64,000 nt of DNA, taken from Blumeriella jaapii. Lineage: Eukaryota > Ascomycota > Leotiomycetes > Helotiales > Drepanopezizaceae. The stretch spans positions 2,666,001 to 2,730,000 of the forward strand of contig VWND01000001.1 of assembly GCA_009599575.1 (NCBI GenBank), written 5' to 3'. Of this stretch, positions 3,746-28,150 are shown in pieces. Positions within the stretch are counted from its first letter, which is position 1. The number at the start of each line of letters is the position of its first letter. The notes below the pieces were generated by a model that saw nothing but the letters and a program-made list of their open reading frames with translations, was not told where the DNA came from and searched no databases. The translations under genes and the position numbers were made by a program.

Positions 3746-4229
3746 GGAATAATATAAGAAATTATATTATTTTCCCAGGCTGACGATTTTTCTTTTATTA
3801 TTATTTTTTTTTTTTTTTTTTTTTCGTCAAAACAGCTTTTTTGTTCTACGAAAAACAATTATATTAAAAACCGAAAAAAAGCCCTCGCCGCGATGGCCTT
3901 TCAGTTTAATATAATCGATAATTTAGATAAACAATCTTTTTTTGTACCTTTCAAACGATCAGTTCGAAAACGAGTCTTTTAATTTACTGCTTATCCAATT
4001 TCTATCTGCCAAATTATTACACACGCTTTTAAGCTGATTTTCAGAAAAAAAACAATTGAAATGTTTTTAACCTTTTTATATAAAATCGACAGAATACTAA
4101 ACGACCTTATATATAACACTTTTTTTAAGACCCAATCTTACAGTTTTTTCGAACGTTTAAAACCAACGAAATATCGATTTCGATCTTTTTAACCAGTTTA
4201 ACAAAGCTAATTTCGAATAAACCTTCCTT

Positions 4230-5640: not shown

Positions 5641-7000
5641 ATTTAGCGTTTGCAAATCCTTTTCCGAGCAAATCAGATCGATCACCGCTTTTTAACTGAA
5701 AAACTTCGATCTTTCACGGTTTCCGAAACAGCTGTTTTTATCGTTGAAATAGCTGATTTTTTTTCCGCATTTCGTATCGTTGACCAACTTTTTTACGTTA
5801 ATTGCACAGCTAGCAGCCTGATAGTCTTTCGAAAAAAAGCTGTACGAAACGCTGCGAAAAAAACGACGATAATAATATTCCGTTTTCGTATATATTTGAA
5901 CGCGATCTGCTATTATATTACGGTCGCTTGATAATATTAAACGTCGACCATTTTCGTTTGGCTTTTATACGAGAAATACACGACCAGATTTCTACCGTTT
6001 ATCTTAGCGCTCGCAAAACTACGCAATTGCTTTCGGACTAATATTATTAGCGAGGTATAACAGCTTTCGTAAAATAATATTATCGCAATTGTTACGCTTA
6101 TCGAAAAAGTTTTGTTTTAAAAAATAAGCGCTCCGGCTTTTTTCAGCCTTTTTTTGTTTTTGACCATTTTTGGAAGTACGTTATAATAAACTTTTGCAGT
6201 TTTAACAAAAACAAACACGATTACGACAACGTATTCGTAATAATAAATCGCTTTTCCAAACAAGCTATTTCGATTTTTTATTATAAAAATATCGACGCTC
6301 GAAGCTTCGCTAAATTGTATATATTTTACGTATACAAATATTTTAGTTTTTTAAAAAGTATTATTAACGATCGTAACTTTTAATATTAATTTATTTTCTG
6401 GTTTGAATTAAATAAAATATTCGATACGCAACTAAAGCTTTCGATAGCCGCTTATTCCGAAACCGACGGTCAGACCGAAATTTACAACCAATATTTGCAA
6501 AAACGCTTTCGACTTTTCGTAAATTTTTATTAAAACGATTAAAGCGAATTTTTTTTAATAATGGATTTCGCTTAAATAATCCTTTTTTACGAAAGTTTAG
6601 ATAGCCTTTTATTTTTTGAAATTGTATACGATTATACTTTTTATATTAATTAAAACTGAAAGCTCGACACTTTTTTCTTTTTCAATCTTTTATATAAGCT
6701 AAACGCAAACGAAGCTCGTGCGTACGTTCGCCGCTATTACGACGCTTGGAATCTCGCCAAATCGCATTTTAACAAATTTATAACAAAATGAAAAAAAATA
6801 CAAATAAGTTTCGCCGCGCGATCGATTTTAATATTAGCGATTACGTATAGCTCGATATACGTCCATTTCCGACCTTCCGGCCTTTTCGCAAGCTCGACAA
6901 TTTTACAAACGGCCTTTTTAAAATTGTAGCCAAAATTTTCGACAACGCTTTTAAGCTAAACCTTTTTAGTATTATAAACGTATATTCAGTTTTTCACGCT
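5640..7000 (+). pseudogene. B1 integrase remnant
   Basis: It starts after the RNase H to integrase linker. The zinc-binding region lies around 5990-6100. The catalytic core is around 6190-6560, where fragments match the classic chromovirus string (NKNKHDYDN, INRFSKQA, a downstream SIINDR-like piece, then a TDGQTE-like piece near 6460). Frameshifts and stops separate the fragments. The same region is readable in B2 (about 24630-25870) and on the minus strand in B4 (58422-58616). Confidence 0.85.
5842..5873 (+). repeat. 33-bp in-frame palindrome, site B-ii (B1; one base short)
   Basis: The left arm is GTACGAAACGCTGCG and the right arm runs to GACGATAAT. It is one base shorter than the 33-bp copies at 24860-24892 (B2) and 58923-58955 (B4), because the central A run has lost a base; this shifts the frame. 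It lies in the linker between RNase H and integrase. Confidence 0.7.
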
Positions 7001-7381
7001 AATCGATTGCGTAAAGCAGCTGACGACGCGTTTTTAAATCAGGTTAACCCAGCTTTTGAGCTTATTAATATAATTGGTAAGTTTAAATACGAAGTCGAAA
7101 AATTAATCGCTTGTCGAATGCAGCGAAAGACTTTTTAGTATAAAGCTTTTTAAATAAGCTTAAACGAAGATTTTACGTAGTACTCCGCGTTTGATTTTAT
7201 ATACGCTTTTTTAAAAATGCGCGACTTTTATTTAGCGTATAAAAAACTCTCCGGTCTTTCTGCAAAACTTGTAAACTGGCTGAAGGCGTATTCCGAAAGT
7301 TTGGATTCGTACGATTATTTGAATAATAACGTACTAATGGATAAAAGCTCGAGAGCGCGCTTTTTTCGGACGGGAAAGTAG
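7000..7381 (+). pseudogene. B1 integrase C-terminus with chromo-like domain
   Basis: The fragment KFKYEVEKLIACRMQRKTF (about 7080-7137), followed by a W-lost stretch and EDFT*YSAFDF, has the pattern of a chromodomain (Tyr-Glu-Val-Glu-Lys, then a Trp-containing second half). In chromoviruses this domain follows integrase and directs insertion to heterochromatin. Codons continue to about 7378 and stop just before the 3' LTR. The B2 copy (25871-26152) is open for 93 codons. Confidence 0.8.
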
Positions 7382-7646
7382 TATAACGATTTATTCTGTT
7401 GCTACCTTTCGTATCACCTTAGCAACTACGTATAGTTGCAAGCTCCCTGGTCTTTTGGTGGATTTCCCATTAATTATAGAAACTATTATATATATAAGGC
7501 TCTTTTTTTTTAGCAACCTTTGCTTTTTGCAGTTGTTGATTCTAAGTGAATATTTTTGTTACAAAACCAAAGGCTCGTTTCATACCATATGAACACGGCG
7601 ACCAGCTGACTGATCTCCCAGCCCTCCGACTGATTAGATCGTTACA
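7382..7646 (+). repeat. 3' LTR of B1
   Basis: A 265-bp LTR whose initial TG has mutated to TA (TATAACG). It ends CGTTACA at 7646 and is followed by the duplication GTTAT (7647-7651). It differs from the 5' LTR mostly by C-to-T and G-to-A changes, while CpG sites are largely kept. Confidence 0.92.
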
Positions 7647-8947: not shown

Positions 8948-9214
8948 TGTAACGATTCACTCTGTTGCCACCTCTCGTGTCACCCCAGCAACTACGTGTA
9001 GCTGCAAGCTTTCTGGTCTCCTGATGGGTCTCCTATCAACTGTGGAAACTATTATATATATAAAGCTTTTTTCTTTTAGCAACCTCTGCTTTTTACAATT
9101 ATTAATTCTAAATGAATATCTTTGTTACAAAACCAAAGGCTCGTTTTTCATATTATATAAACACGGCGACCAATTGACTGATCTCCCAGCCCTTCGACTG
9201 ATTAAATCGTTATA
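8948..9214 (+). repeat. 5' LTR of B2
   Basis: A 267-bp LTR starting TGTAACGATTC and ending CGTTATA. It pairs with 26396-26662 and keeps the TATATATA-like motif near 9054-9062. Confidence 0.92.
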
Positions 9215-11506
9215 TTATTAACAACTCTTTTTCTACGCTAGCGACGGCGTAAATTATTTTTTCCTTCGAATTTCTCACGAATTATACCAAGGTGATCGAC
9301 CGGTCGTAAAAAAGCTTATTTTCGCATTTTGCGAAAAATAGCTCTTATTCAACGATCCCTCTCTTAGCAAAGCTTTTCAGCTCCTGCTATTACATCTTAA
9401 CCTTTCTTTTAATCAGCGAAAAAGCAGCCTTTCCCAGAAGCTTTTTCTTCTGAAAAACAATCCTCCCCCCGAAAAAAAAAAAACAAAAAAAAAAGCAAAG
9501 CGCCAACCACTTCGCTTGCCATCTCCCAGCTTAGCGCTAAAAGCGTTTAGTTAAGACTTCTGCAAAATCAACTGAAAAAAGCGCAAAAGCGTAAACGACA
9601 ACTTTTAGAAATTATACGACTGCGACAGACCTTTTAATTAAAGCGTTTGGTAAAATCTATCGAACGTGTTTTTGCCAATCGCGAATCTGCTGCTTTATTT
9701 TTTCGCAACGTTTTATTTCAATTAACAAACGCTGTAAATTAATTTCTACGCTTTTCGCGAACTTTTTTTGAATCTCCTTTTGACGGCTAAAACTTTAGCG
9801 CGCTTTTTAAACGCTATAATTCCCATTTATTTGCTAACTTTCGACTAGCTCGTATAAAACGCGTTTCGAACCTTAAGTTTAAATTAAATAATAATAAAAA
9901 TTATAACACGCTATTAAAAAACTAAAGTTTTCGACAATTTCGAATTTTACTACGATTATTTCGCTAGCAATCGATTTCGCAAAAATTATATATTCGATCA
10001 GACCGAAAGCGTAGCAAAAGAGTTTCTGACCTCGCGTATTTTAAACCGTTCCGATTTTACTTTTTCCGAAAAATTAATAAAAAAAGTCGCCGATTTCCTA
10101 GCCGACTTTTCCGACGTTTAAAAAGCCGAAAACGAATTTAAAATACTTGCAATAAATACGTACGACGATTTTTAGCGATTTTATCTGCGATTTTTTATTT
10201 TCGCAGCAAACGCTTAAATACGAACCGATAAACAGCTTCGAAACGCTTTTCGCGATAAAATATCAAAGCGTTTACGAAAAAAGCTGCATTTAAAATAAGC
10301 GCGTATAACGATTTTTAAAAATTGATTTACCGCCGTCCGTCAAAAAAAACAAAATCAATTAGCTAAACGAATTTTATACGCGAATCGCTTTTTAATTAAA
10401 TCTATTATTTATTAAAATAGTAAGTTTTTAATTAAAGCGTACTACGAGTCAAATCGTACGTACGAAAATCGTTTAAATGTTTTATAAGCTTTTTTTCAGC
10501 CTTTTGTTTTTTCTTTTTCTCCACGCCAAAACGCTTTTTTTAGCGTTTTTTTTTTTTCGATCGGATCAACGACAACGCTCGTTTTTTATTTTACATCAGA
10601 AAGTTTAAAAAAGCCAATTTGCACGACTTTTTACGGGCCGACCCTCGGTTTTACCTAAAGGCCCTTTTAAGCTAGTAAATATAAACGAAATCGAGCCGGC
10701 CGAAGATTCGCTTTTTAATAATAATAATAAAAACGAAAATCTTTTTTCAAACGATTTTCAAAACGCATACGAAAAAATTAAAAGCTTTTTCGCTAATCGA
10801 AAACGCTCAAGCCTAAGCAAAACCTTTTTTTTAAGCGTATTACGCGATATGCGTTATTTTAACGTTCGAAAGCTTTTTAATAGCGATTTATTAACAATTC
10901 CCGTTATATTTATTAAAAATAACTTTTCGTATAAAATAAAAGCGCTCGCCGATTTTAAAGCGAACGGTTATACGTTGATCGATTCGGCGCTGATTAAAAC
11001 TTTTTTTTTTTTTTAAAACTTTTGATTTAATTTCTCCCGGCTTTTTTTTTTGTAAAAAAGTATAATAAAGCTCGTAGCCATTTAATTATATATTTTACGC
11101 TTTTCAATTTTATTATTAATAATCGAATACAATCGTTTACTTTTTTTTTAATTATTAATCTCGGAAATTATAGTATGATTTTAAAAAAAGCTTGGTTGGC
11201 CGAATATTAAGTTTTATTAAACTGTAATAAACGCAAGTTTTATTAGCCGAAATCTTATCCTTTTACAGCCTTTTACGCTCGTTGTATTAAAATCTTTTAT
11301 TTGCATTTCCCAAAAATTCAATCTCGCTATTAAAACGACGCTGTAAAACGTAACAAAAACCTTAACTAATTGTAACAGATTTACGACGCTGTGCGAAACG
11401 CGAAAAGGTCGAATTTTATTCGCGGTGCTAATTTCGATAGCGACGCTAATAAAATAATACAAAAAATCATACCATTATTTTTTCAGACTAACGATCCTTT
11501 TTTTAT

Positions 11507-11538
<32 letters not shown>

Positions 11539-11564
11539 CGTCAGAACAGCAGCTTTTTTTCGTT
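9215..11564 (+). pseudogene. B2 leader, gag region and protease remnant
   Basis: Collinear with B1 1499-3840. Leader and gag-region sequence runs to about 10850. A protease remnant at about 10870-11000 again shows IPVIFIKNNFSYKIKALADF followed by an Ala-Asn-Gly-like stretch, so the catalytic Asp-Ser-Gly is lost here too (Asp-Phe). A T run at 11510-11538 corresponds to the T run at 3808-3826 in B1. The piece stops at the A1 insertion; TTAT at 11565-11568 is the duplication. Confidence 0.7.
11418..11450 (+). repeat. 33-bp in-frame palindrome, site B-i (B2)
   Basis: Arms ATTCGCGGTGCTA and AGCGACGCTAAT. It reads IRGANFDSDAN within an open frame at 11391-11573. Same insertion site as 3713-3745 in B1. 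Confidence 0.85.
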
Positions 11565-11568
11565 TTAT

Positions 11569-11835
11569 TGTAAAACGGTGATACTCTGTGTTAATAGGAG
11601 TTGGTAGTTTTAGCTATGGTCGAGGCATGGACCCCTCCGAGATCCCCTGCCATTGACTACTTTCAACAGGTATAAGAACAAGGCACCCTTTTAAATAGTA
11701 CCGCAGGTACGCAATCCAATTCATATTTTTACTTATTCTTTTTTTTCTTTTTTCAGTTTTTTTTAGGAATTCCCTAGACTATTTTACCTACCGATATATG
11801 GCCGTATCAGTTTGGTTTTCCTATCTACTTTTACA
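11569..11835 (+). repeat. 5' LTR of A1
   Basis: A 267-bp LTR starting TGTAAAACGG and ending ACTTTTACA, giving short inverted ends (TGTAAAA / TTTTACA). It is the best preserved of the five family-A LTRs. Confidence 0.95.
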
Positions 11836-11837
11836 TT

Positions 11838-11850
11838 TGGTAATCTACGC
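11838..11850 (+). promoter_or_regulatory. Putative primer-binding site of A1
   Basis: TGGTAATCTACGC begins two bases after the LTR. A primer-binding site pairs with a tRNA 3' end and so normally opens with TGG. A2 keeps the same site with one G-to-A change (35585-35597, reverse strand). The tRNA identity is not assigned. Confidence 0.65.
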
Positions 11851-12530
11851 AAAAATTTAAACTTCGGTGTTTCGTTTTTATACATTCGCCGATGCATCTT
11901 TTAAATTCATAATCAAAGTCGACTTCGATATTTCGTTATTACGGCTTAAAGGACTTTTTATATAGTATTGTTCGCAGCTGTATTATATAAAGGACTTTTA
12001 ATGGCTTTCCTTATTTTGCGCATAGTTATTAAATTACAAAAATGTAATATATTTCAGAAACGTTTGAAATTACGGTCAGGCAATTCTGAACCGTGCGAAG
12101 TTCAAAGCTCGAAAGTCGCTTTTTTGTTTAAAAATAACAAATCGAATATTGGTTCGTACGCTTCGATCGCTGCGCTCGGTCCTTCTGAACTAGATCTTTT
12201 TTGATCAAACGCCTGGCGAGAATTTAACCTTCTGATTTTACGTTTTGTGATTATGGCAATTACAATTTGCGGCTTTTTATTAGAAATAGTAAGAAAATGG
12301 CTGTACGTGCATTGGCCTGAGCCACGGAATATCGAAACCGTGGATTATATAATAATATTATATTAATCCAGTTAATTTATTAAAAAACAAATTCTTTAAT
12401 ATATTACTTAAATATCTGAACGCAATCTTATTTTATTTAATTCTTTTAAAGAACACAAAAACCTTTTTGATAGCTTTTTTATTAAAAACGATTTTTTTTA
12501 TATTAAAGATTTTTAATTTGCAACTTCAGA
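11851..12530 (+). other. A1 5' leader
   Basis: About 680 bases between primer site and gag. A 78-codon open frame at 11968-12204 has a partly matching frame in A2 (35119-35310, reverse), but I recognise no domain in it and treat it as leader or an unassigned upstream frame. Confidence 0.5.
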
Positions 12531-14040
12531 AAACACTTATTCGTTTAATTTAAATTTTATTAACACTTTCGTTAATACCATAGACAACGACGCCTTTCGT
12601 TTTCTTATGCGAGGTCGCATGCCCCTTTTTGGTTCCCTTGGTGCATTTTTATTTAATAGCGCTAATATTACCGATTTTATCGAGAAATATAAAAAAACTT
12701 ATGAGGATTTCGAAGTTTTTAAAACTGAGATGTTCGATAAATTTTCTCGTTATTATGACCTAATTATTAAAAATATTATTAAATCGATAAATAAATAAAA
12801 GACTATTGGGGCTCGAGACTGGCGTAAATTAATTAAAGCTTTGAAATCGGAATTCCGAAACTACGATCGCTAGCAAATTCGCGATACTATCGCTTTTTTT
12901 AAACAGTTTGTTATAACAATTTGCTAAGCTAAAAAACTTAAAGCTTATTGTCGTACTTATACGAGAGTTTTTAACGTTTTCGTTAATAAAAAAGTTTTAA
13001 GCGAGGTTAAGCAGGGAAAATTGTTTTTATTTGGCTTTTTAATTAGCATTCGTAACAAAACTATTAAGCATTTTAAAATTAATAAACAAAATCCCGAAAC
13101 TTTCGATTAATATTTCAAATTTGTGGAATTCGTTTTTAAGCAAGATCAAAGCGAACGTATTATTAAAGCCATGGACCAAAAGAAATTCCTATTTTTTATT
13201 TACAAGAAAAACGTAGAAGCTTTAGTGCAGAAACATGCCCAGCTACTAAAAGTTACCGAAATCGCTAAAAAACAACCAGTTATTATACTATTTAATCGCG
13301 CTGCAAAGCTTACAAACTTGGAAAAGCTTGATAAGAATATCGAAACTTTTGTATTAAAATTTACCGATATTAAAATTCAAAGGCTTTAAAGCAAAATCGA
13401 AGATTTTATGCAGCAGCAGAAGAAACTTTTTTACGTTAACTCGGATAATAAAAACGACCAAGATGGCTTTTATAATAATTATTTCTTTTAAAATGCGCGA
13501 AGTGATTAGTTTCGCTAAGCTATCGTAGGAGTAATGGCTGCCCAGTGGCAACCTTTTCGTATTAGCGATCAGGATCAGCGAAATATTAATTATAATAACG
13601 ATTACTAAAGGAAAGAAGGAAATCAACGCGAAAATCAGAATCGCGGCTATTAAAATGGTAAAAATAATTATTAAAAAAGACTTCGTGGCCTTAAGTGTGA
13701 ATTCTGTAACAACAGAGAAATTTACTGCGAAGAATCTTATATTCGCTTTGAGTGCAAAGCATTTAATTTCTGTATAAATAATAATGTTTATTATATTAAT
13801 AAATACGAAGCGATCTGCTTCGGACCGACGAAAGCAGAAATGGGCCTTTTTAATAAAGCTGAGAATCAGAGCTGGTTGAATATTATTCGCTTAAAAGTGA
13901 AAGGTACGAAATGGAACGATTGCTTAAAAAACAGGAAGGATGCGAAAACGATTTTTATTAATAAAAGAGAAAATATCCCAAAAGGCGTATTAATCAAAAA
14001 GAAAATCCTTATTTTAAGCGTGAATAGAATTTAAATATAT
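12531..14040 (+). pseudogene. A1 gag remnant
   Basis: A Gypsy capsid-like frame: NSANITDFIEKYKKTYEDF near 12654-12710, then an alpha-helical stretch with SINK, ARDWRKLIKALKSEF (12810-12860), TYTRVFNVFVNKKVLSEVKQ (about 12955-13014) and FVFKQDQSERIIKAMDQKK (13126-13182). A Cys-rich segment (CEFCNNREIYC, then FECKAFNFC) at about 13693-13770 stands where a nucleocapsid zinc knuckle is expected; its His is not preserved. Internal stops fall at former Gln and Trp codons. Open pieces are 12607-12798, 13123-13389 and 13840-14034. Confidence 0.8.
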
Positions 14041-15160
14041 AAATGGAAATTAAATACATATATTGCTAATGCAAGTATCGCATCTGCAGATATTATGGCT
14101 GTATAATTAAGCCAGCGAACCATAAGAAAGTAAAATGCTTTTGTTTTATTCGCCAAGTTAACAGGCGTGAAAAAGAACGTCAGAATCGAAAAAGAAAAGA
14201 TTTTGAAATTCGAGAAAAAACCGATAAAATCATTAGAAAAACGCTTATAATAAAAGAAATTAACGACGATATAAAAGATATCGATACCGATATCCCGGTT
14301 TAAATTATTCAGAAAGTACCAGCTTTTAAGCGCTTTTTATTAATGCGAAGCGAAAAATGGATCGACAAATACATTAGCCCCGAAGCAGTCGACGAAGCTA
14401 TTAAAAGAATTATAAAACAAAAGATTAAATTAAAATTCAGCGATTTATTTAGCATAAAAAGGAGATTCGATAAAATTATTAACAAATAGATTTCTGTATT
14501 AAAAAAAAACGAAAAGATTGAAATTATCCGAGGAGAAAACGATTTTGAATTAGAAAAAGATTAGGAAAAAATTTACAACACCGCAGTCAACTTAGCCGAT
14601 AGGAAGAAATCTTCGGAAAAAATCAGCCTTTTGGCTCTCGCTATAAAGACCCAGAAGTTAAAACGACGAAACTGCTTTTATACGGCTATAAAAGCGTTAA
14701 AAATAAAAACAATGCTTGAAAAAAGCACGACAGCTTTCGCTTTATTCGATAATAGAGCCGAAGTCAATTGCATAGACCAGGAAACAGCCGAAGCCAATAA
14801 TATCCCGATTATTATTAATAAGCGAATGATTTACACTACCGTTAATAAAAACACTATTAAATTTAATAAAATTATACGGAATATAAAAGTCGACGTTGAA
14901 AATATTATTATTTATAAAAACTTTTTAATAATAAAAAAATGCTTTTATTTTATTATTTTTAAAATGCTTTGGATTTTGGAAAGTCTCGTCAGTTTTAAAT
15001 ATACCGAAAACGGCCAGATAAAAGCTTTTTTCTGAAATTGAAACCGATCTTTTCAAAGTTAAATCACCGTCGCCGGCGACAAAATCTTTTTAATCGACGT
15101 TTTATCGAAAAACGAATAGCCGGCTTTAGTTTTAAAATAGACGCTGAGTTATAACAAAAC
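14041..15160 (+). pseudogene. A1 pre-protease segment and retropepsin
   Basis: A charged segment (EKWIDKYISPEAVDEAIKRI at about 14355-14414) precedes the protease. The protease frame 14631-15035 holds TTAFALFDNRAEVNCIDQE; the usual Asp-Ser-Gly-Ala active site reads Asp-Asn-Arg-Ala, two substitutions that would kill it. A later KMLWILES fits the Gly-Met-Pro-Trp-Ile flap end of Gypsy proteases. It lies between gag and RT as expected. The A2 copy is at 32393-32800. Confidence 0.8.
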
Positions 15161-15183
15161 TTGAAAAACACTCAGCCAAAAGC

Positions 15184-15216
15184 ATTCGCGTTATTAATCG
15201 AAATAGCACCGCGAAT
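15184..15216 (+). repeat. 33-bp in-frame palindrome, site A-i (A1)
   Basis: Arms ATTCGCGTTATTA and TAGCACCGCGAAT. It reads FALLIEIAPRI inside the open frame 15161-15421, between protease and RT. The A2 copy is 32212-32244. Confidence 0.85.
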
Positions 15217-17056
15217 AAAATTAGCTAATATTAATATTTTTGGCTATCAATTCGGAAATAAAAATTCCGAAGATTTCGTTTTCGTATTAAACAAACCCGA
15301 CCCATATATTTTACTTTTTTGTGTTAATATTAGTATTTTTTACAAGCGTAAAGCTGATAAAATACGATCCGTAAATTTTAGCGAATTCGGTGAAAATATT
15401 TCCGGAAAAATAAACGATTGATTTGAAAAGAATAAAATAATAAAATCATTTTAATTAGTTATTAGCGAGTTCGAAGGATTTATTACCGGCCGATTTTCCA
15501 GCTTATTATTTGGCAGCCGATTTACAAAAGAACGATTTGATAATTTAGTAATCGGAATTCAATTTTTGTTAAAAAAAAAAAAGGTTTTGTACGAAATCTT
15601 ACGCAACCGAAAAAAAGCTATGGCTTTCGATTTTACCGAAATGGGCCAATTCAGTTTTAACGTTACGCTTTATATCGATATCAAAACCGTGCTTTACGAA
15701 GCTTGGCAAGAAAAAACCTTTTCAGTTCTTAAAACCTTTTAGAATAAGATAGTCGAAATGCTAAAAGAGCGAATTAAACAAAAGATCTTCGAGTTTTGCT
15801 ACGGCTTATACAGGAACAAATGGTTTATCGTTGCGAAAAAAAAGAAAAGCATTTACAAATTTATTATCGCAATCGTCGAAATAAACAAAATAACGATACG
15901 AAACGCTAACGTGCTATCTAACGTCGATTAATTTTCAAACGAATTCGCAGAATTAACGATCGCTTTTTTTTTCGATTTGTTTTCCGGCTACGATCATTTA
16001 GTGCTTAATCTACGATTTCGAAATATAATAGCAATTCAAATTCTAATCGGTTTACTGCGCATAACAAAAGTACTTATGAAAGCTATTAATTCAGTCGCTT
16101 AATTCGTAAGAGTCGTATATAAGGTTTTTATAACTTGCATTTCCGATATTATTTTGCTTTACGTTGACGACGTCGAAATAAAAGGCTTTAGATTATATTA
16201 TAATAATAAAAAGATTTTTTTTAAAGTTCGACGCTATATAATAAAATATATTTAAAATATCGACAAAATTATAATTTGCTTCGAAAAAGCCAAAGCTATT
16301 ATTGGCTTTCGATTAAAATTCTGTATATTCGAAATAAATATCGTTGGTTATATAACTAACAGCGCTGGCCGCTATTTTTAACGAAAGAAAATTAAAAAGA
16401 TCTGCGAATAAAAAAGATATAAAAATATTACCGAAGCTAAAGCTTTTATTAGCGTTGTGATTTACTACCGCAATTGAATTAAAAACTTCTTTTAAAAAAC
16501 CGTATTTATTTACGCTACGATAAAAAAAAAAGTCGATTTCGTTTGGGAAAAAAAACAAAACAAAGTTATGGAAATTCTCAAAAACGATTTTTTATCGGTT
16601 TTATCGCTTGTGCGGATCGATTATAGCCCAGACGCAAAAAAAATCATTTTGATTATCGACGCTAATATTTTCGGTTGGGAAGCTATATTGCAATAAGTCG
16701 ATAAAAACAAAAAACGACACTTTTTACGATTCGAAAGCGGCCTATAGTTTTTCGCGGAAACACGCTACGATGTTATTAAACGAAAATATCGAAGCGCTTT
16801 TAAAGCAATAAAAAAAATAAAAAGCGAATTGTACGGCGTATATTTCATTTTGGAAACAAACGCAAAAGTTTTTGTCGATCAACTGAATAAAAAAGCCAAT
16901 GATTTATTAAAAGCGCTCGTTATCAATTGGATAGCTTGGATGCGATTTATAGATTTCGAAGTTAAACATATTAAAAAAACAATTAATACAGCGGCAAACG
17001 GCTTTTTCAAACGAAAACGCTTTTATTCGTTTGATTTCGCTAAACAAAGCGAATAA
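15217..17056 (+). pseudogene. A1 reverse transcriptase and RNase H remnant
   Basis: Gypsy RT fragments: KWFIVAKK at about 15818-15842, FDLFSGYDHLVLNLRFRN (15970-16025), and the active site YVDD at 16160-16171, intact, within ILLYVDDVEIKG. The thumb and RNase H region follow with AKAFISVVIYYRN, VDFVWEKKQ and IDANIFGWEAILQ (about 16657-16695). The RNase H ends with LYGVYFILETNAKVFVDQLN and a TAANGFFKRKR stretch (16829-17056 open). Stops remain at former Gln and Trp codons. C1 is inserted just upstream of the YVDD site in the A3 copy. Confidence 0.92.
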
Positions 17057-17130
17057 AATATTAACGAATAAATTGCTAACGAAATCGGCTGCTTCGCTAT
17101 TTGCGCTTTGGGTTTTATAAAGCCAAAACT

Positions 17131-17163
17131 ATTCGCGTTGCTATTTCGGCTGGCACCGCGAAT
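17131..17163 (+). repeat. 33-bp in-frame palindrome, site A-ii (A1)
   Basis: Arms ATTCGCGTTGCTA and TGGCACCGCGAAT around a 7-base loop; 11 of 13 arm positions pair and one more is a G-T wobble. It reads FALLFRLAPRM in the linker between RNase H and integrase. Confidence 0.9.
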
Positions 17164-17193
17164 GAAAAACACTAATTTTCGGACCGAAAAAGC

Positions 17194-17226
17194 ATTCGCG
17201 TTATTATCTCGGCTGGCATCGCGAAT
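17194..17226 (+). repeat. 33-bp in-frame palindrome, site A-iii (A1)
   Basis: A second copy 63 bp downstream of the first, in the same orientation and phase, reading FALLSRLASRI. The 30 bases between the two are unrelated to the palindrome. Confidence 0.9.
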
Positions 17227-17289
17227 AAATTTGATCGAAAACGATCGGAATAAACCGATTAGCGACGAAAATAAATTTTTAATCGACAA

Positions 17290-18570
17290 TTACGAGATCG
17301 ACGATTTTTATTTAATCGCATATTATTTAATTATTTTATTCAAACTATTTAGCGTGCCAAACTATCAGTTTAAGTTATTTAAAAACCAAGCTTTCGATTA
17401 TATTTTGGCCGACAAAAAGTTATACAAAATAAAAAATAATATATATCAAAAACGCTTAGTAGTAAATAATAAAGCCGATAAGTTTTAAATCATAAAAAAA
17501 GCTTACGAAAAAGTGTTTTATAAAAAAGCTAAAACCATTTATTACCGAATCAAAAACGATTTCTGATGGAAAAAATGCTTCGAAGATTGCAAAGCTTTTG
17601 TTAAAAATTGCATTTTTTGCCAAAAACGGAAACCTGGCCGAAAAAAAAACTTATTATATTCGACGTGGTTTTCTGAAGTATAAAAAAAAATCAATTTCGA
17701 TATTATACGCGTGTTAATCACCGATCGCGGTTATATATGCTTCGTACTCGCTATTAACGATTTATTTAAATGGTTTAAAAAGCGATTTTTCCGAAACGCT
17801 ATTTCCGAAGCTATAGCGATCTTTTTTTAGGAAAACGTTGTTTGTCGATACGGTTTGTTTAACAAATTAAACGTCGATAATAGATTCGAAAACAAAAGCG
17901 TTATTAAGATTTTCATAAAAAAATACGGGATTTAGCGTATTTAAATCTCAGCCTACAATTCGAAAAGCAACGGATCCGTGGAACGAGGCTATAAAAATAT
18001 TTTTAACGGCTTTTTAAAAGCCATTCGAAAGGGCTATAAGCGTTGGTCGCGGAAATTCTCGGGAATGCTTTTTGTTATGCGCATATATATATACGCTTTT
18101 ATTAGAATAATTTTATTTTTTATTTAATACGGCAGAAACGCTCGACTGCTTCTAAAAACAAAATGGTTTGTATAAAAGCTTTATAACGTAATCAAAATGA
18201 AAACGAAAGCTGATTTATTAATAATAAAATTTAAACAGCTAAACTACCGCGATATAAATATGGAAAAAATAATTTTAAAAAAGAAAAAATATAAAAAAGC
18301 AGCTAAAGAAATTTAAAATAAAACCAAGGTTTTAAAAAAGACGCTAATCAAAAAAAAAGATTTAGTTCTAGTTTACGACGTTTAGCGCGCTATCGATAAA
18401 TCGGCCGATATTAAGCTTGATTATAAATGGCTCGGATTTTACGAAGTATGCGAGGCCGAATTAAATAAAAGCTATTATAAGTTTACGAACTCGATGAAAC
18501 AAAACTGAAAGAAACGTTCGCCGCCAACCGGTTAAAGCGATTTTACAAAAAAAACTAATAAATTTACCTT
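17290..18570 (+). pseudogene. A1 integrase remnant
   Basis: The zinc-binding part shows KCFEDCKAFVKNCIFCQKRK (about 17575-17632), with the Cys pair intact. The catalytic core follows: NFDIIRVLITDRGYICFVLAI (first Asp region), then GLFNKLNVDNRFENKS (second Asp), then ISAYNSKSNGSVERGYKN with the final Glu at about 17983. A C-terminal part carries KADLLIIKFKQLNYRDIN and VYDV*RAIDKSADIKLDYKW. Stops are few relative to A2 and A3, so the family's integrase is recognisable end to end. The catalytic Asp, Asp, Glu residues look present. Confidence 0.9.
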
Positions 18571-18730
18571 TTGGATTTTAAATCAAATAGCGACTCCGAT
18601 TTCAGCGATTCCGACGACGACTCCGACCAGAGCGATTATATTTCTAAAAAAAAAGAAACTTTTGGAAAGGTCTGGAAACAATCGAACGATAATCCCGCTG
18701 CTGAAAGCACAGTTTAAATCGTAATTTCAT
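18571..18730 (+). pseudogene. Acidic Ser/Asp tail of A1 pol
   Basis: After integrase, the same frame continues into SNSDSDFSDSDDDSDQSDYI and then a basic stretch, ending at a stop near 18717. The acidic run is also visible in A2 (about 28800-28855, reverse) and A3 (about 43970-44020). Its role is unknown; acidic tails in integrases of other LTR elements can guide targeting, but that is only an analogy. Confidence 0.65.
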
Positions 18731-19210
18731 TTATGACCGAGAAGGAGAAAGATATATATAAGATTGTTTACTAACTGTTTTATTATTTTTATTATTTATT
18801 GTTTTCCTTTTTATTGTATATTGTTTTATTGTTTTTGTTTTGCTTTGTTTGTATACAATTTAATTATTCTGTTCCATATATATTGTTTATTTTTAAAACC
18901 TTTTTTTATATTATTTAAGACATTTATTATACTTTTCTTTGTTTAATTGTACTTTTGTTTATTAAAACAAAAGCTTTGTATATATTTGAGCCGCATATTT
19001 GATATATTTATATTGCTCGCACACTTTACGAAAACTATTTTTTATATATTTTATTATTTGCTATTTTCTGTATTGTTTACTTTTTTCGTTGTTTTGAACG
19101 GGTGCTTGTCTAAACAATTATAATTTATTAGAAAAACAGTATGCGGATCTCCGTAATTTTTGGATATAAATACTTTACAATTCCCGTACTTTTTTTCAGC
19201 TACTTTTTAA
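18731..19210 (+). other. AT-rich spacer of A1 between pol and extra frame
   Basis: A T-rich stretch of about 480 bases with no credible gene. A 60-codon hydrophobic frame at 18764-18946 is a by-product of T-rich sequence. The same spacer is conserved in position in A2 (28151-28700) and A3 (44150-44635), so it may hold signals for expression of the downstream frame. Confidence 0.5.
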
Positions 19211-22200
19211 TAAACACAATATATTCTTTTAATTAACAAACCTATCGATATTATATCGTTTTCTAAGCAAAGCGTTGCTAAACTTAGCAAATTTATTTTT
19301 AATTTACTTTGGAACGAAACTATTATACGCAATCTTTTCGAATTTAAGCAAGCATATAATGCCGTTATTTTAGATTAATAAGCAGCTTTCGTAAAAACAT
19401 TTATAAAGCAATTCGATATAATAATTGAAAACGTTAACGAATTTTTATTCGATTACAAAAGCTTCGTTAAAGCTGAATTCGTTCGCAAAAGTTTTAATTA
19501 CGATAAATTCCTGTTAAATTACGACAACGCTTTAAAAGCTTTCGCCGGAGCAAAAAAAGTTCGAAATAACAAAAAGAAAATAACAGACCGGATTTTGCGC
19601 TTTTTGTCAAATCAGCGAAAAAAGAATATTTAAAAATACGTTTTTAGCAAAATTATCGGTGTTATTTTATTTCGGCATTTCGTTCGCTTTTTCGAACTAT
19701 TACCTTTACGAAGAAAGGAGTTTGGATACTAAACGCTTATATTTTCAAAGCGCAAGCTTTAAAAGCTAATAATCCAAAAGCCCGCAGATTTATAAGCTTT
19801 TTTATAGCTGTTTGCAAATTGGTCGACGACGTTATGCAGTCGCCAGAAAAAGTTTTAATCGGCTGCGAAACCCTAAGTCTGATCTTTTTTTAAAGCAAAG
19901 AATTAAGCGTCGTTAAATGCGGCATTTTTATACCGAACGAAAAAAACGATGCTATTCCGACGTTTTAAACCTACGACGACGAAAAAAACGAAGAAATTAA
20001 TATTATTTTCGTTTAATTCGAAAAGATATACGTAATAACAATTAATATTTTTAGGGCAGCTAAAACAATTCGACGACTTTCATTTTTAACTGTCGAAAAC
20101 GAGTCCGAGAACGAAACCAGAAGCGTGATAATAAACAATCGCTTATTCGAATATAAAAAACTTATTATACTTATAAATATAATTCCGGAAGAAATAAAAA
20201 CAAAAAACGTAAAAAAGCGCGCCGATATTTTCGAAATCTTTTTTGTTCGAAAAAAAAAACCATTCGCGTCGTTAGCAAAAAAAGCACCGCGAATGAAAAC
20301 AGCCGGAAATCAACGCCGAGCCACAGGCTTTAAGCCAATTAATAAAAAACGCGACGATTTTACAAAATCAGATTTAAAAAACCTTAGCATTTCGAAAGAA
20401 AAAAATTCAAACGATTTTGAATCTAATCTTTTAAAACTGAATACGCAAATATCAAAAACGCTTATTGCGTTTAAAAACGTCGAACCGCTAATACTTCAAA
20501 CTTTAATAAAAACATTTAAAATTTCGATTATTGCGCGATTCGACCGAAAAAGCTTAGAAAAAAATATCGAAATTATCGCGAAAAAAATTATACAAAAAGC
20601 ATAAAATCAGATTACTTTGCTTAAAACTTTCGCTTTCGACGACGAAACGATTCAAAAGTTTTATTTCGATACTTTTATACAAAAACCAAATAAATCCGTC
20701 AGTTTTTTCTCTTTTGCTTCGAACGAAAACTGAATCAAACCTTTTTCGAAAGATTGCAAATATAATACGCTAAAGTAAATAAAAAAGACTTTTGAAAACG
20801 ATAATCCGTTTTTATTCGAGTTTTTTTTCGCTAAAAAACTCCGATTTTTTAATTTCGTTTTTACGAATAATATTAACGCTAGAAAAAACGGCAAGTTTTG
20901 CTATTTCTACGTACGCTGTTACGCGGCGTATTGCGATTTAATTATAAAAGAAATTAACGTTATCGGTTTCGCTGATCGATTCGCTGCTATCAGAAATTCG
21001 AATTACGACGTGTTCGAAATTGATTTTAATAATCAATTTATATTTCGACGAAAAACTGCGAAAACTACTTAAGCGCGTACTAAAGCTTATTTGGGCTACG
21101 CAAATTTCAAAGCAAACCCTAAAGCTTTCAGCGCGATTATAAAATTCGACTAAAACGTGGAAAAATAAAAGCAACGAATATTTTCAAAAGCCGACTTTTT
21201 TGGCTTTTCGACCGAAAAAGTGCTTTAAAATCTACTTGAACTAAGCTGCGAATTCGTTAATTACGTAAAATTTCATAACGAAGAAAACAAGCCATTGCTG
21301 CATTTTATAAAAAAAAAAATAGTTATATATAAATACTATTTCCGACTAGTTAAAACCCAAAAAGCACTTACAGCTTTTTTCGCTAATATGCTTTACAATC
21401 TCATTTAACAAGCTTTTAAAATGCATTCCGGCCTTTATTTCGCTGCTTTAATTATTCGAAATTCCGAAAACTGCCGCTTCGTGGCTTATTTTAACGTCCC
21501 GATCGCTTCAGGCTTTATTAGTCCCGACCGTATTACAATTATAAAATTCGATATCGCCGATTTTTAAAAAAAGGAAAAAATCGAAAACTTTACCGACGCC
21601 ATCTTCGACTACCACGTTCTGCTTGCTTTCGTATATAATTCGGAAATAATCGAAGCTTATTTGCAATTATACTACGACGCCAAGCTGATTAAAATCATTT
21701 AAAAAAGCCTAGCTTTTTTGTATTTCAGCGCGTTTAAAGCGGTGGCTTTAGCTATTTTATCGGATTACGAAACCGAAAGCTACGAAATAAAAAATGAAAT
21801 AACCTTTATCAGCTTTTCGACTAAGCAAAAGGTTTTCGTCAGATTCAGAACCCAAAAAACCAACGGCGCAATATTGGTTTATTCGAATAATTACACGGCG
21901 CAGAAATACAAAAACTATTTCGAAAACGATAATCCGATAAGCAATCTGATATTATTTATACTGCGGCGGAAACAATTATAGCATTTTCGATAGTTTCGAT
22001 TGCAAACGATTATTTCCGAACCATTTCGTAGAATAGTTTTTCTTATAAGCCTCGAAGCTTTTTCAAAAGCATTCGTCGGTAAACAATCGTGGTCCGATTT
22101 ATTAGTTTTACGCAAAGCAAAAGCGTTAATCGGTTTTAATTACGACGAATTAATCGATTACTTCCACGATTTTAATATAAGACTTTTTAGCGCTTTTTGC

Positions 22201-22400
22201 AAAGCATAAAACCACGTTCAGAAGCTGGAATTTATTATTTACGAAAAAAAATCGTAAAAAGCATTCGTCGCTGCGACGCTTAATAATATTATCGACGAAA
22301 AAGCTATCAGAACGTTCGTAGGTTTAAACGATACCTCGATTGATATTTTATCGAGCCACTTTTCAAAAGAGCAGAGTAAATAAAATAATTTAAACGACAA
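19211..22400 (+). pseudogene. A1 extra reading frame (ORF2) of unknown function
   Basis: A frame of about 1,000 codons, interrupted mainly by stops at former Gln or Trp codons. It starts near TNLSILYRFLS (about 19218) and runs to about 22380, followed by the 3' UTR. Longest open pieces: 20125-20604 (159 codons), 21718-21981 and 22000-22209. Visible sequence includes KCGIFIPNEKNDAIPTF, an acidic YDDEKNEE stretch, the palindrome-derived FASLAKKAPRM, and a Cys-containing KFCYFYVRCYAAYCDLI (about 20893-20943). I recognise no domain; it is not an obvious envelope, since no signal peptide or membrane segment stands out. The same protein-like sequence persists in A2 and A3. It could be a captured host gene or an element-specific protein. 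Confidence 0.7.
20262..20294 (+). repeat. 33-bp in-frame palindrome, site A-iv (A1)
   Basis: Arms ATTCGCGTCGTTA and AAGCACCGCGAAT. It reads FASLAKKAPRM within the open frame 20125-20604 of the extra ORF. Copies are at 27159-27191 (A2) and 45644-45676 (A3). Confidence 0.88.
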
Positions 22401-22598
22401 GCGAAACGCTACCCTTCCGCAGAAGCCAATAGCAAAAAGGCTAAGAACGGGTTAAAAGACCGAAAGAGTATAAAGCTAAGAAGTTCGGTTTTGATTAATT
22501 GGTTTAAATTATATGAAATAGACTAGATTGCATTTGTTAAAATTATGTTTTTTTTTGGTCGTAGTCAAAAACGATTACGTATATTGTTTGGGACAGGA
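22401..22598 (+). other. A1 3' untranslated region and polypurine tract
   Basis: Non-coding stretch between the extra frame and the 3' LTR, ending in GGGACAGGA (22590-22598), a plausible but short polypurine tract. It matches 715-900 (reverse) and 56020-56225. Confidence 0.6.
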
Positions 22599-22865
22599 TA
22601 TAAAACGGTAATACTTTGTGTTAATAAAAGTTGGTAGTTTTAGCTATGGTCGAGGCATAAACCCCTTCGAAACCCTTTGCCATTAACTATCTTCAACAGG
22701 TATAAAAGCAAAGCACCTTTTTAGATAGTACCGCAAGCACGCAGTTTAATTCATACCTTTATTTATTCTTCTTTTCCTTTCTTCAGTCTCTTCTAGAAAT
22801 TCCCTAGACTATCTTACCCACCGATATATGGCCGTATTAGTCTGGTTTTCCTACCTACTTTTATA
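22599..22865 (+). repeat. 3' LTR of A1
   Basis: A 267-bp LTR. Its first dinucleotide has changed from TG to TA and its last from CA to TA. It is followed by the duplication TTAT. Confidence 0.93.
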
Positions 22866-25800
22866 TTATAAAAAACAATTATATTAATAACCGAAGAAAA
22901 GCCTTCGCCGCGATGGCCTTTCAGTTTAATATAATCGATAGTTTAAATAAGCAATCTTTTTCTAAACTTTTCAAACGACCAGTTCGAAAACGAATCTTTT
23001 AATTTATTGCTTACTCAATTTCTATCTGCCAAATTATTGCATACGCTTTCAAGCTGATTTTCAGAAAAAAAGCAGTTGAAATGTTTTTAATTTTTTTATA
23101 CGAGATCGATAAAATACTAAACGATTTTACGTACAACACTTTTTTTAAAACTTAATTTTATAATCTTTTCGAACGTTTTAAAATTAATAAAATATCGATT
23201 TCGACCTTTTCAATCAGTTTAGCAAAGCTAATTTCGAATAAACCTTTTTTCGAATTTTTTCCCTCGGAATACAAAAACCTCGAATACGTGTTTTTTAAAG
23301 CCGCCAGTAATAAGCTAGCTTTTCACCGGCCTTACGATTATAAAATCGAGCTTATTATAAATAAAAAAAAATCTGAAATACATTTTTTTATATAAAATAT
23401 CGATTTCAAAGCTCGAAATTATTAAAACCTATTTGCAAAATAATTTTAACAAAAGCTTTATCGAACTTTCCACCGCTTTTTTGCTGCTTCAGTGCTTTTC
23501 GCCAAAAAACCCGACGGTTTATTGCGTTTTTATATCGATTACCGAGCTTTTAATAATATTATTCGTAAAAATCGCTACTTTTTTTTTTTTATCGATAAAA
23601 CTTTTGCTTGTTTTTCGAAAGCGCGAATTTTTACGAAGCTCGATATTCGTTAAGCTTTTTATAAAATCCGAATAAATTTCGCTAATAAAAAACTGACGAC
23701 GTTTCGTACGCGTTACGGCGCTTATAAATGCAAAATGCTACTTTTTGGCTTTACAAACGGATCCGCAATTTATTAACGTTATATAAACAACGTTTTTTTC
23801 GATTATTTAAACGATTTTTGCATTGCATACCTGGATAATATTTTTATTTATTCGTCCGATCTTTTAAAATACGCTATATACGTTCGCAAAATATTTCAAA
23901 AGCTCGCTAACGCTAAATTACAGGCCGATATTCGGAAGTTTAAATTCAACGTTATTCGGATCCGTTATTTAAGCTTTATTATTTTTATTAAAAGCTTAAA
24001 AATAAATTTAAAAAAAGTCTTCGTAATCGCTTATTAAAAGCCTTTTACTATTGTAAAAAATATATAAACTTTTTTGATTTTTGTAACTTTTATCGACGTT
24101 TTATTCGAAACTACGATATAATTGCAAAACCTTTGGTTTATTTAATCAAAGCTAACGTTTTTTATAATTTTATTTTTAAATATCAGAAAAGTTTCGACTT
24201 TTTTATATTAGTTTTTATTATTACATCAGTTTTATAATATTATAAGCAAAATCTTTTTTGTATATTAAAAACTGACGCTTCCGACGGCGTAATAGCTTTT
24301 ATGCTTTCGCAATTCTATAATAACAATTAGCTTTCAATCGCTTATTTTAGCAAAATTATAATTTTCGCAAAACTGAACTACGTCGTATACGATAAAAAAA
24401 TGCTCGCAATCGTAAAATTTCTAAGCAATTTTCGTATTAAACTGATTAATTTAATTTATTAAATCAAAATTATTACTAATTATAAAGCTTTGGAATATTT
24501 TATAATTTTCAAACTTTTAAACGTTCGATAAACACGCTAAGCCGAGCTTTTCGTCGATTACAACTTTTTTATTATATACAAATCAAATAAACATAATCTT
24601 TTAATTAACGCATTAACACGTCGTACGAGCGAATTCGATCGCTAAAACTTTTAAACGCATTTAGCGCCTGCAAATATTTTTTCGAGCCGATTAAATCGAT
24701 CACCGCTTTTTAATTAAAAAACTTCGATTTTCTACGGTTTTCGAAACAGCTGTTTTTATCGTTAAAATAGCTGATTTCTTTTTCGCATTTCGTATCGTTA
24801 ACCAGCTTTTCTACGCTAATCGCACAGCTAGCAGCCTGATAGCTTTTCGAAAAAAAGCTGTACGAAACGCTACGAAAAAAAACGACGATAATAATATTTC
24901 GTATATATTTAAACGCGATTTGCTGTTATATTACGGTCGCTTAATAATACTAGACGTCGATTATTTTTGTTTGGCTTTTATACGAGAAATATACGATCAA
25001 GTTTCCATCGCTTATTTCAGCGCTCGCAAAATTACGCAATTGCTTTCGGACTAATATTATTAGCGAAATATAATAGCTTTCGTAAAACAATACTATCGCA
25101 ATTATTACGCTTATCGAAAAAGTTTTGTTTTAAAAAATAAGCGCCCCGGCTTTTTTCAGCCTTTTTCTGTTTTTAATCATTTTTAAAAGCACGTTATAAT
25201 AAACTTTTGCAATTTTAACAAAAACAAATACGATTACGATAACGTATTCGTAATAATAAATCGCTTTTCCAAGCAAGCTATTTCGATTTTTTGTTATAAA
25301 AATATCGACGTTCGAAGCTTCGTCAAATTGTATATATTCTACGTATATAAGTATTTTAGCTTTTTAAAAAGTATTATTAGCGATCGTGGCTTTTAATATT
25401 AATTTACTTTTTAATTTGAATCAAATAAAATATTCGATACGCAATTAAAGTTTTCGACAGCCGCTTATTTTAAAACCGATAATCAAACCGAAATTTACAA
25501 TTAATATTTGCAAAAACGCTTTCGATCTTTCGTAAATTTTTATTAAAACGATTAAAGCGAATTTTTTCTAATATTAAATTTCGCTTAAATAATTCTTTTT
25601 TACGAAAGTTTAGATGGCTTTTTACTTTTTAAAATTATATACGGTTATATTTTTTATATTAATTAAAACTAAAAGCTCGATACTTTTTTTTTTTCTAATT
25701 TTTTATATAAGTTAAACGCAAACGAAGCTCGTGCGTACGCTCGCCGCTATTACGACGCTTGAAACTTCGCCAAATCGCACCTTTAATAAGCTTACGATAA

Positions 25801-26395
25801 AATAAAAAAAAATGCGAATAAGTTTCGCCGCGCGATCGATTTTAACGTTAACGATTACGTTTAGCTCGATATGCGTTTATTTTCGATCTTCCGGCCTTTT
25901 CGCAAGCTCGACAATTTTATAAACGGCCCTTTTAAAGTTATAACCAAAATTTTCGACAACGCTTTTAAATTAAATCTTTTTAGTATTATAAACGTACATT
26001 CAGTTTTTTACGCTAATCGACTGCGTAAAGCAGCTAACGACGCGCTTTCAGGTCAGGTTAACTCAGCTTTTAAATTTTTTAATATAATTAATAAATTTAA
26101 ATATAAAATCGAAAAATTAATCGCTTATCGAATACAGCGGAAAACCTTTTAATATAAAACTTCTTAGATAGGCTTAGATAAAAATCTTACGTAGTATTCC
26201 GCGTCTGATTTTATATACGCTTTTTTAAAAATGCGCGACTTTTATTTAGCGCATAAAAAGCTTCCCGGTTTTTTTGCAAAATTTATAAACTGGCTGAAAG
26301 CGTATTTCGAAGATTTAAATTCGTACGATTATTTGAATAACGACGTATTAATAAATAAAAGCTCGAAGGCGCGCTTTTTTCGGACGGAAAAATAA
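22866..26395 (+). pseudogene. B2 pol, right part: RT, RNase H, integrase, chromo-like domain
   Basis: B2 resumes after A1. RT is at about 23230-24000 (KNPTVYC, KAREFLRSS-like frame, and CRAYNNIIRKNRYF-type fragments). RNase H follows with TDASDGVIAFMLSQF (about 24270-24315). The integrase core lies about 25200-25600. The C-terminus is open over 25871-26152, with FRKLDNFINGPFKVITKIFD and KFKYKIEKLIAYRIQRKTF, matching the chromo-like end of B1. The active site Tyr-Leu-Asp-Asn at about 23825-23838 has lost its second Asp. Stops are at Gln and Trp codons. Confidence 0.88.
24860..24892 (+). repeat. 33-bp palindrome, site B-ii (B2)
   Basis: Arms GTACGAAACGCTACG and AACGACGATAAT. It lies in the RNase H to integrase linker and is the same site as 5842-5873 (B1) and 58923-58955 (B4). 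Confidence 0.75.
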
Positions 26396-26662
26396 TGTAA
26401 CGATTTATTCTGTTGCCACTTTTCGTATTATCCCAGCAATTACGTATAGCTGCAAGCTCTCTGATTTTCTGGTGGGTTTTTTATTAATTGTGGAAATTAT
26501 TATATATATAAGGCTTTTTTTTCTTAGCAACCTTTGCTTTTTGCAGTTGTTAATTTTAAATAAATATTTTTGTTACAGAACCAAAGGCTCGTTTTTTATA
26601 CCATATGAACACGGCGACCAGTTGACTGATTTCCCAGCCCTCCGACTGATTAGATCGTCACA
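26396..26662 (+). repeat. 3' LTR of B2
   Basis: A 267-bp LTR beginning TGTAACG and ending GTCACA, the latter probably the unmutated form of the terminus. It is followed by the TTTTT duplication (26663-26667). Confidence 0.93.
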
Positions 26663-26667
26663 TTTTT

Positions 26668-28150
26668 TATTTGCTTTAGCGTGTTACATTTGCAATCTTC
26701 CGAAAAAGGCTTGATCCAGTTTTCGTTCGAAGCAAAAAAAAAAAAGCTGACGGGTTTATTTAATTCTTATATAAAAATATCGAAATAAAATTTTTAAATC
26801 GTTTCGTCGTCGAAAGCGAAAGTTTTAAGCAAGATAATCTAATTTTGTACTTTTTGTGTAATTTTTTTCGTGATAACTTCGATATCTCTTTTTAAGCCTT
26901 TTCGGTCGAGTCGTGCAATAGTCGAAATCTTAAATGCTTTTATTAAAATCTGAAATATTAACGGTATTAATACGACGTTTTTACGCAGCAAGCGTTTTTA
27001 GTATTTACGTATTTAGCTTCGAAAAATTAGATTCAGAATTATTTAAAATCTTTTTTTTCGAAATGCCGGCGTTTTCCGAATTTAATTCCGTAAAATCGTC
27101 GCGTTTTTTGTTAATTAGCTTAAAAGCTGTAGCTCGGCGTCGATTTCCGGCTGTTTTTATTCGCGGTGCCTTTTTTGCTGGCGACGCGAATAGTTTTTTT
27201 TTCCGAATAAAAAAAGTTTCGGAAATATCGGCGCGCTTTTTTACGTCTTTTGTTTTTACTTTTTTCGAAATCGTTTTTATAAATATAATAGGTTTTTTGT
27301 ATTCGAATAAACGGTTATCTGCTATTACGCTTTTGGTTTCGTTTTCGAATTCGTTTTCGATAATTAAAAATAAAAATCGCCGAATTGTTTTAGCTGCTTT
27401 AAAAATATTAATTGCTACCGCGTGTATTTTTTCGAATTAAACGAAAATAATATTGGCTTTTTCGTCCTTTTCGTCGTCGTAGATTTGAAATATCGAAATA
27501 GCGTCGTTTTTTTTTTTCGGTATAAAAATGCCGCATTTAGCGATATTTAGTTTTTTGCTTTGAAAAAAAATTAAATTTAAAGTTTCGCAGCCGATTAAAA
27601 CTTTTTTTGGCGATTACATAGCGTCGTCGACCAGTTTGCAAACAGCTGTAAAAAGGCTTGTAAATCTGCGGGCTTTTGGATTGTTAGCTTTTAAAGCTTA
27701 CGCTTTGAAAATATAAGCGTTTAATACCCAGACTTTTTTTTTAATAAAAGTAATAGTTTCGAAAAAGCGAGCGAAATGCCGAAGTAAAATAACACCGGTG
27801 ATTTTGTTAAAAACGTATTTTTAAATATTTTTTTTTCGTTGATTTAACAAAAAACGTAATATTCGGTTTGTTATTTTCTTTTTATTATTTCGAGCTTTTT
27901 TTGCTTCGGCGAAAGCTTTTAAAACGTTATCGTAATTTAGCAGGAATTTGTCGTAATTAAAGTTTTTGCGAACGAATTCAGCTTTAACGAAGCTTTCGTA
28001 ATCGAATAAAAATTCGTTGACGTTTTTAATTATTATATCGAATTGTTTTATAAACGTTTTTATAAAAGCTGCTTATTAATTTGAAATAGCGGTATTATAT
28101 GCTTGCTTAAACTCGGAAAAATTGCGTATAATAGTTCCGTTTTAAAATAA
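26668..28150 (-). pseudogene. A2 extra frame (ORF2), N-terminal part
   Basis: Reverse-complement match to A1 about 19215-20780. Fragments of the same protein as A1 can be read on the minus strand. A plus-strand open frame at 26934-27440 is an antisense shadow of it. It contains the palindrome at 27159-27191. Confidence 0.78.
27159..27191 (-). repeat. 33-bp palindrome, site A-iv (A2)
   Basis: On the plus strand it reads ATTCGCGGTGCCT ... GGCGACGCGAAT, the reverse of the A1 copy at 20262-20294. Confidence 0.88.

Follow-up and report, generated by a model that had tools for sequence, protein, structure and literature searches.

A palindromic unit in two families of LTR elements

We found that a 33-bp palindrome is a real unit of the DNA analysed here, and that it occurs at five sites in the Pol coding sequence of two families of LTR elements, A (11.3 kb) and B (6.4 kb). 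With moderate confidence, we regard it as an old palindromic mini-element that inserted in Pol of both families and was then amplified by its hosts.

The window, i.e. the whole stretch of 64,000 nt that was analysed, lies in contig 1 (3,094,099 bases) of a 47.4-Mb, 91-contig genome. A contig of several megabases suggests a nuclear location. The GC content of the window is 29%, and it contains no start-to-stop open reading frame of at least 200 aa. Self-comparison revealed a nest of LTR elements, whose boundaries are our reading of the matches:

1234..7644, + strand: element B1, with LTRs of about 265 bp, inside A2 (self-comparison; Pol homology by tblastn)
8948..26665, + strand: element B2, interrupted by A1 and inside A2 (reading of nested self-comparison matches)
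11566..22867, + strand: element A1, 11.3 kb with LTRs of about 267 bp, inside B2 (reading of self-comparison)
26666..35869, - strand: main piece of element A2, with the remainder at 7645-8948 and 448-1234 (reading of self-comparison)
41509..46637, + strand: the part of element A3 in which its palindromes lie, A3 being broken by another element (reading of self-comparison)

The elements are decayed. In the single 1.1-kb stretch counted, 125 transitions and 2 transversions separate A1 from A2 outside the palindrome, the transition-heavy pattern that repeat-induced point mutation would leave. The protease-to-RT stretch of B1 (3347-4174, frame 2, which is also the frame of B-i) matches a homologue with a protease domain at 22% identity, and RT homology starts from about 4231 in a different frame of this decayed copy (both by tblastn). 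The B Pol homologues listed include Drepanopeziza, Diplocarpon, Podosphaera and Monilinia, which makes a fungal host from this group probable. A Pfam search with ten decayed fragments gave one RVT_1 and two DUF matches, all three under their cut-offs, and an Rfam search of the whole window gave no match.

Elsewhere in the genome, the B stretches at two loci with 49% GC (L029, L035) are far less decayed than the others, as judged from the 2.4-kb stretches read. Little-decayed copies beside heavily decayed ones indicate either repeated amplification of B or local escape from decay. Further RT-like stretches are 46% (L026:6551-7012) and 40% (L025:9543-9932) identical to B; a profile scan found no palindrome in the former (best score 1.3) and a B-i copy at 3250 only in the latter. 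At L017:1531-1540, the 3' edge of an A-i palindrome directly abuts a B element.

Copies of the palindrome in the window

We identified 13 copies, listed below with the strand on which position 8 is T. All are based on both the reading of the sequence and the profile search.

15184..15216, + strand: A-i palindrome of A1
17131..17163, + strand: A-ii palindrome of A1
17194..17226, + strand: A-iii palindrome of A1, 30 bp after A-ii
20262..20294, + strand: A-iv palindrome of A1
32212..32244, - strand: A-i palindrome of A2
30266..30298, - strand: A-ii palindrome of A2
30203..30235, - strand: A-iii palindrome of A2
27159..27191, - strand: A-iv palindrome of A2
42514..42546, + strand: A-ii palindrome of A3
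42577..42609, + strand: A-iii palindrome of A3, with the centre TTTCGAT
45644..45676, + strand: A-iv palindrome of A3
3713..3745, - strand: B-i palindrome of B1, with the orientation mark as in A and antisense to B Pol
11418..11450, - strand: B-i palindrome of B2

The 11 A copies and two B-i copies score 39.1 to 58.3, and the maximum in 20 Markov-shuffled windows is 14.9. Since the profile was built on the 11 A copies, the independent scores are those of the two B-i copies (39.1 each).

An earlier reading made from the sequence alone (the sequence-only reading) had counted 16 copies at six sites. Thirteen copies and five sites were recovered; the three copies of the sixth site, B-ii, were rejected on the profile and on less decayed B copies. 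The B-ii place at 58923 scores -3.2, and those at 5842 (5842..5874, + strand) and 24860 do not appear in the list of the 40 best places. When B-i was included in the profile and its centre columns were left out of account, 58923 reached 14.3, just over a cut of 14 that has no null behind it. Five less decayed B copies carry at B-ii a stretch of variable length without a palindrome. This stretch is ACGACGATAATAATA-like, as seen at 5842-5880 of the window and in L038-L042. The claimed B-ii stretch lies near the end of one tblastn Pol match and the start of the next.

Anatomy and edges of the unit

The unit consists of two 13-bp arms and a variable 7-base centre, about 33 bp in total. A perfect palindrome built from the arms as written in the sequence-only reading has 0 matches in the genome. 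In the 13 window copies, the 13 outer pairs include 8 to 11 Watson-Crick pairs, and positions 8 and 26 are mispaired in every copy. This common mispair indicates common descent and serves as an orientation mark. By this mark, all A copies are sense to Pol and B-i is antisense, which bears out the opposite orientation claimed for the two families. As a result, the peptides differ and the DNA is common to both.

Agreement between the five sites ends sharply. In purine/pyrimidine code it is 0.90 inside the 33 bp, compared with 0.52 to the left and 0.54 to the right (60 bp on each side), which supports the earlier claim of one palindromic unit in two families. Beyond the unit, unbroken agreement covers one pyrimidine 5' and a purine, A and A 3'; an A at -5 is also common. 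By position, all 13 window copies fit Y-ATT...-R. That the edges are sharp at all five sites is an argument that a unit was inserted. The GC content per copy is 13 to 18 of 33 (mean 47% over 13 copies, versus 29% in the window). The raw identity of A-iv and B-i is 27/33, one more than the 26 reached by the top AT-rich match of A1 with B1; chance is the less likely source of the A-iv/B-i match because its GC is 18/33, compared with 4 to 11 in the AT-rich matches.

We surveyed the centres in 68 places picked by T at position 8 and by score, in which overlapping loci double some places and the rejected 58923 is included. The usual centres were ATCGAAA at A-i, TTTCGGC at A-ii and A-iii, GCAAAAA at A-iv and TCGAAAT at B-i. 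At all four A sites, AAA precedes the unit and A-rich bases follow it; B-i has no such pair. We found no clear target duplication in the flanks of the five sites. RNA folding of single copies is modest, with z from -2.7 to +0.4 in six folds (for one of them, L035, the piece folded was off by one base).

Reading frame

Among 13 B copies, the two with 49% GC have a frame through B-i that stays open for 415 and 469 aa, in both cases up to where the fetched piece ends. The other copies are more decayed, and the open stretch of this frame is 325 aa in L030, 28 aa in B1 and 30 aa in L033. The peptide is (T/I)RGANFD(G/S)DAN, in agreement with the IRGANFDSDAN-like reading given before. Homologues that match the 469-aa stretch over its full length contain reverse transcriptase domains.

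The A copies read are decayed, and their frame was judged from stops. Over 333 bp, summed over copies, the claimed frame and the next of the six frames contain 5 versus 9 stops at A-i, 7 versus 9 at A-ii, 9 versus 14 at A-iii and 0 versus 1 at A-iv. The claimed frame therefore has the fewest stops at all four sites, with a tie with another frame in one A-i copy. It reads K-x-F-A-x-x-x-x-x-A-P/S-R, and at A-ii and A-iii it continues into a weak Pol match (17330-17620, 25% identity, E 3e-4). None of the 994 candidate homologues of the A-ii/A-iii linker reached an E value of 0.01. In A1, A-i has the same phase as A-ii and A-iii, and A-iv has a different one, which makes the in-frame reading of A-iv probable rather than proven. 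On sequence grounds, the A sites are probably read in frame. In-frame reading, as proposed at the outset, is thus supported by open frames at B-i and is probable at A by fewest stops.

Genome-wide search for other contexts

The strict pattern ATTCGCG-N15..23-CGCGAAT matched 1,089 places in the genome, and its reversed-pattern control matched 2. Because this pattern reads identically on both strands, the two strand counts amount to one set. The unit is 33 bp long, with single 32-bp variants among the approximately 100 places listed and among the A-i copies listed.

Other contexts were sought by asking for flanking bases that A lacks. A purine before the unit was found at 3 strict places on either strand, all of them A. 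C or G at -3 gave 6 matches, namely 4 in A and 2 chance-like ones in GC-rich DNA. With a looser form of the pattern, C or G at -3 gave 69 matches (68 B-i-like by sequence and one A-iv), and all ten of the B-i-like places that were fetched were B copies by flank. C or G at +3 gave 5 matches, comprising 2 A loci already found by the -3 filter and 3 chance-like places, two of them unfetched. A search for the right arm by itself, again with C or G at +3, gave 8 matches, 2 of them A, against 4 in the control; among such right arms, there was no excess of solo ends that would point to a parent transposon.

We found no context besides A and B in these flank-filtered searches. If flanks are random, the purine filter alone would reveal three quarters of other sites; a fixed target preference could hide sites, and strongly diverged copies are missed. 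Occurrence outside the two families, which the sequence-only reading had envisaged, was therefore not seen within the reach of the filters. Neither a host gene nor any other third sequence was thus seen to have received the unit independently. A source copy of the unit was not found in the genome, and a degenerate 33-base pattern gave 0 matches in GTDB bacteria and archaea and IMG/VR. The exact A-iv string with a GAAA flank also gave 0 genome matches, a result without weight since the query mixed two copies.

Empty sites and homologues

In the host genome, 267 A-i sites are filled and 0 are empty, indicating that the insertion predates amplification. Joined flanks of B-i gave 12 matches (control 2), none with the expected bases, in a search that had no filled control. 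The empty sites anticipated among the host's own copies were thus absent at A-i, and none of the expected form was found at B-i.

The closest homologue of B is P0122 (Diplocarpon coronariae), with 42% over 93% in the protease-connector stretch. It has a gap at B-i of 18 aa by MAFFT or 21 aa by BLASTP, spanning the 11 aa of the unit. A second homologue, P0123, shows the same gap in a four-sequence alignment, and its BLASTP match stops before the B-i site; the alignment of P0124 ends short of the site. This suggests that the B-i stretch is extra in B and leaves the length of the insertion not fixed at 33 bp. The claim that relatives lack the stretch therefore holds for the two closest homologues that reach B-i in the alignment, but the gap, measured in P0122, is 18-21 aa and not 11. 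The linker around B-i is poorly conserved. We inspected 120 listed homologues of the B stretch out of 1,305. Of the 120, 17 align to the first 260 aa of the query, starting before residue 55, at 24-30% identity, which is too low for gap placement. An RGANF-type or FALL-type motif was found in none of the 120.

Exchange between sites

Both flanks of one copy (L043) mark it as A-i, and its centre is GCAGAAA, like A-iv variants among the matches listed. Inside the 33 bp, L043 has 2 transversions against both A1 and A2; outside, over about 1,060 bp, it has 1 to A1 and 3 to A2. By eye, it is the sole A-i copy with an A-iv centre among about 100 listed of 267. With this one clear case, exchange between sites that is limited to the palindrome seems to have occurred during or after amplification. 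The centre TTTCGAT, present in 3 of 19 A-iii places, is the reverse complement of the A-i centre and could reflect exchange with inversion, or mutation. At L044:501-533, the centre of an A-iii copy is TTTTTGC, which equals the usual A-iv centre read on the opposite strand.

Origin of the unit

In the reading that we favour, a palindromic mini-element of about 33 bp would have entered Pol coding sequence long ago, four times in A and once, in the opposite orientation, in B. The frame would have been kept because the length is a multiple of three and the frames of the unit are mostly open. The unit appears to sit in linkers between Pol protein domains, and the two families would then have amplified and carried it along. 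Each placement would be a separate insertion at the DNA level, and five placements suggest that the unit was once mobile. The tiny mobile palindrome of the earlier reading stands to this extent; its mobility is something that we infer and did not see. A point against separate insertions is that the A sites all have the same orientation and AAA before the unit, and that three share one phase in A1. This uniformity could be due to spread within A by duplication, or to a role at the peptide level.

A serious rival, which we judge rather unlikely, is that recombination spread the unit among A and B. Here, a passive sequence would have a single origin in A, multiply by short duplication or conversion, and reach B once by template switching or conversion. 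The single orientation at four A sites agrees with this, as does a best frame in which the unit is read alike in all of them; A-ii and A-iii, separated by 30 bp, usually have one centre in common, L043 carries an A-iv-type unit changed within the 33 bp only, and a third context was not found in flank-filtered searches. However, agreement ends 1 base 5' and 3 bases 3' of the unit, so that duplication must have copied almost exactly the palindrome each time, and the inverse orientation in B requires an inversion or an insertion anyway. An insertion of another kind, a minimal MITE made of two terminal inverted repeats of a DNA transposon back to back and moved by transposase in trans, would explain the inverted-repeat build and the fixed edges (a purine before ATT at 3 strict places only; Y-ATT...-R in 13/13). 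We consider it improbable, given the 8 single right arms (2 of them A copies) against 4 in the control, and flanks without a consistent target duplication.

A selected peptide or RNA hairpin, e.g. a cleavage or binding motif at Pol domain borders with the palindrome as by-product, would account for the reading shared by the A sites and for copies that fold better than shuffles. But where A sites share residues, their codons agree as well, transitions aside, and B reads the other strand as a different peptide. That A and B read opposite strands of common DNA argues against a selected peptide, and we hold this explanation to be very improbable. That A and B resemble each other by chance, or through ancestral homology, is scarcely credible. 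The 27/33 match of A-iv and B-i is one above the best AT-rich match and B-ii is at chance level, but B-i scores 39.1 against a shuffled maximum of 14.9, and flank agreement in purine/pyrimidine code is not above about half.

Relation to known palindromic elements

MITEs and REP-type palindromes are small inverted-repeat elements without coding capacity. Unlike these, the unit came with no target duplication, parent element or solo-arm excess in our searches.

Rickettsia palindromic elements (RPEs) are palindromic repeats in open reading frames that are translated in frame at several unrelated sites (PMC3767692, PMC10969869). The unit resembles them in lying in frame in open reading frames (415/469 aa at B-i; by fewest stops, and more weakly, in the decayed A copies). 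RPEs are bacterial, 100-150 bp long and present in many host genes, whereas the unit is probably fungal, 33 bp long and was found in two retrotransposon families by flank-filtered searches for little-diverged copies. GC clusters of yeast mitochondria are GC-rich palindromes (GC42 has 42 nt) that occur in frame in the var1 coding region and undergo conversion and shuffling between copies (PMC4478555, PMC8811140). Here too a GC-rich palindrome (mean 47%) of similar length lies in frame in AT-rich DNA (29%). The clusters, however, are mitochondrial and mostly intergenic, have AG/TAG end repeats and vary in presence and absence; the unit lies on a 3.09-Mb contig at coding sites, was seen with AAA before and A-rich bases after it at the A sites and with no such pair at B-i rather than with AG/TAG ends, and has 0 empty sites at A-i and none of the expected form at B-i. 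PARCELs are coding repeats with dyad symmetry, some of them in eukaryotic microbes (PMC2996958); unlike their 25-residue tandem repeats, the units here are single and of 11 codons.

By analogy, the palindrome would work like RPEs and yeast GC clusters, and by the features compared it is a member of neither. We propose, tentatively, that it may be a nuclear eukaryotic counterpart of RPEs, spreading by itself and in frame into Pol linkers, using retrotransposons as vehicles and still exchanging its centres. The sequence-only reading knew of no published precedent. At the level of titles and abstract openings, no paper that we found describes a palindrome of this kind in a nuclear retrotransposon; in-frame GC-rich palindromes in yeast mitochondrial var1 are in print (PMC8811140), and the claim has to be narrowed accordingly.

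Genes of Rickettsia and Wolbachia, as well as the mitochondria of yeast, are known to contain in-frame palindromes; the present ones lie in retrotransposon polyproteins on a multi-megabase contig, in hundreds of copies. If the insertion is confirmed in relatives, the unit would offer a testable case of very short DNA adding peptide linkers, and of a parasite riding on a parasite. Its many decayed copies would also permit palindrome-limited exchange to be measured. Among the matches listed, two common forms of the A-i left arm, ATTTACGTCGCT and ATTCGCGTTATT, recur across contigs and may represent subfamilies or different courses of decay.
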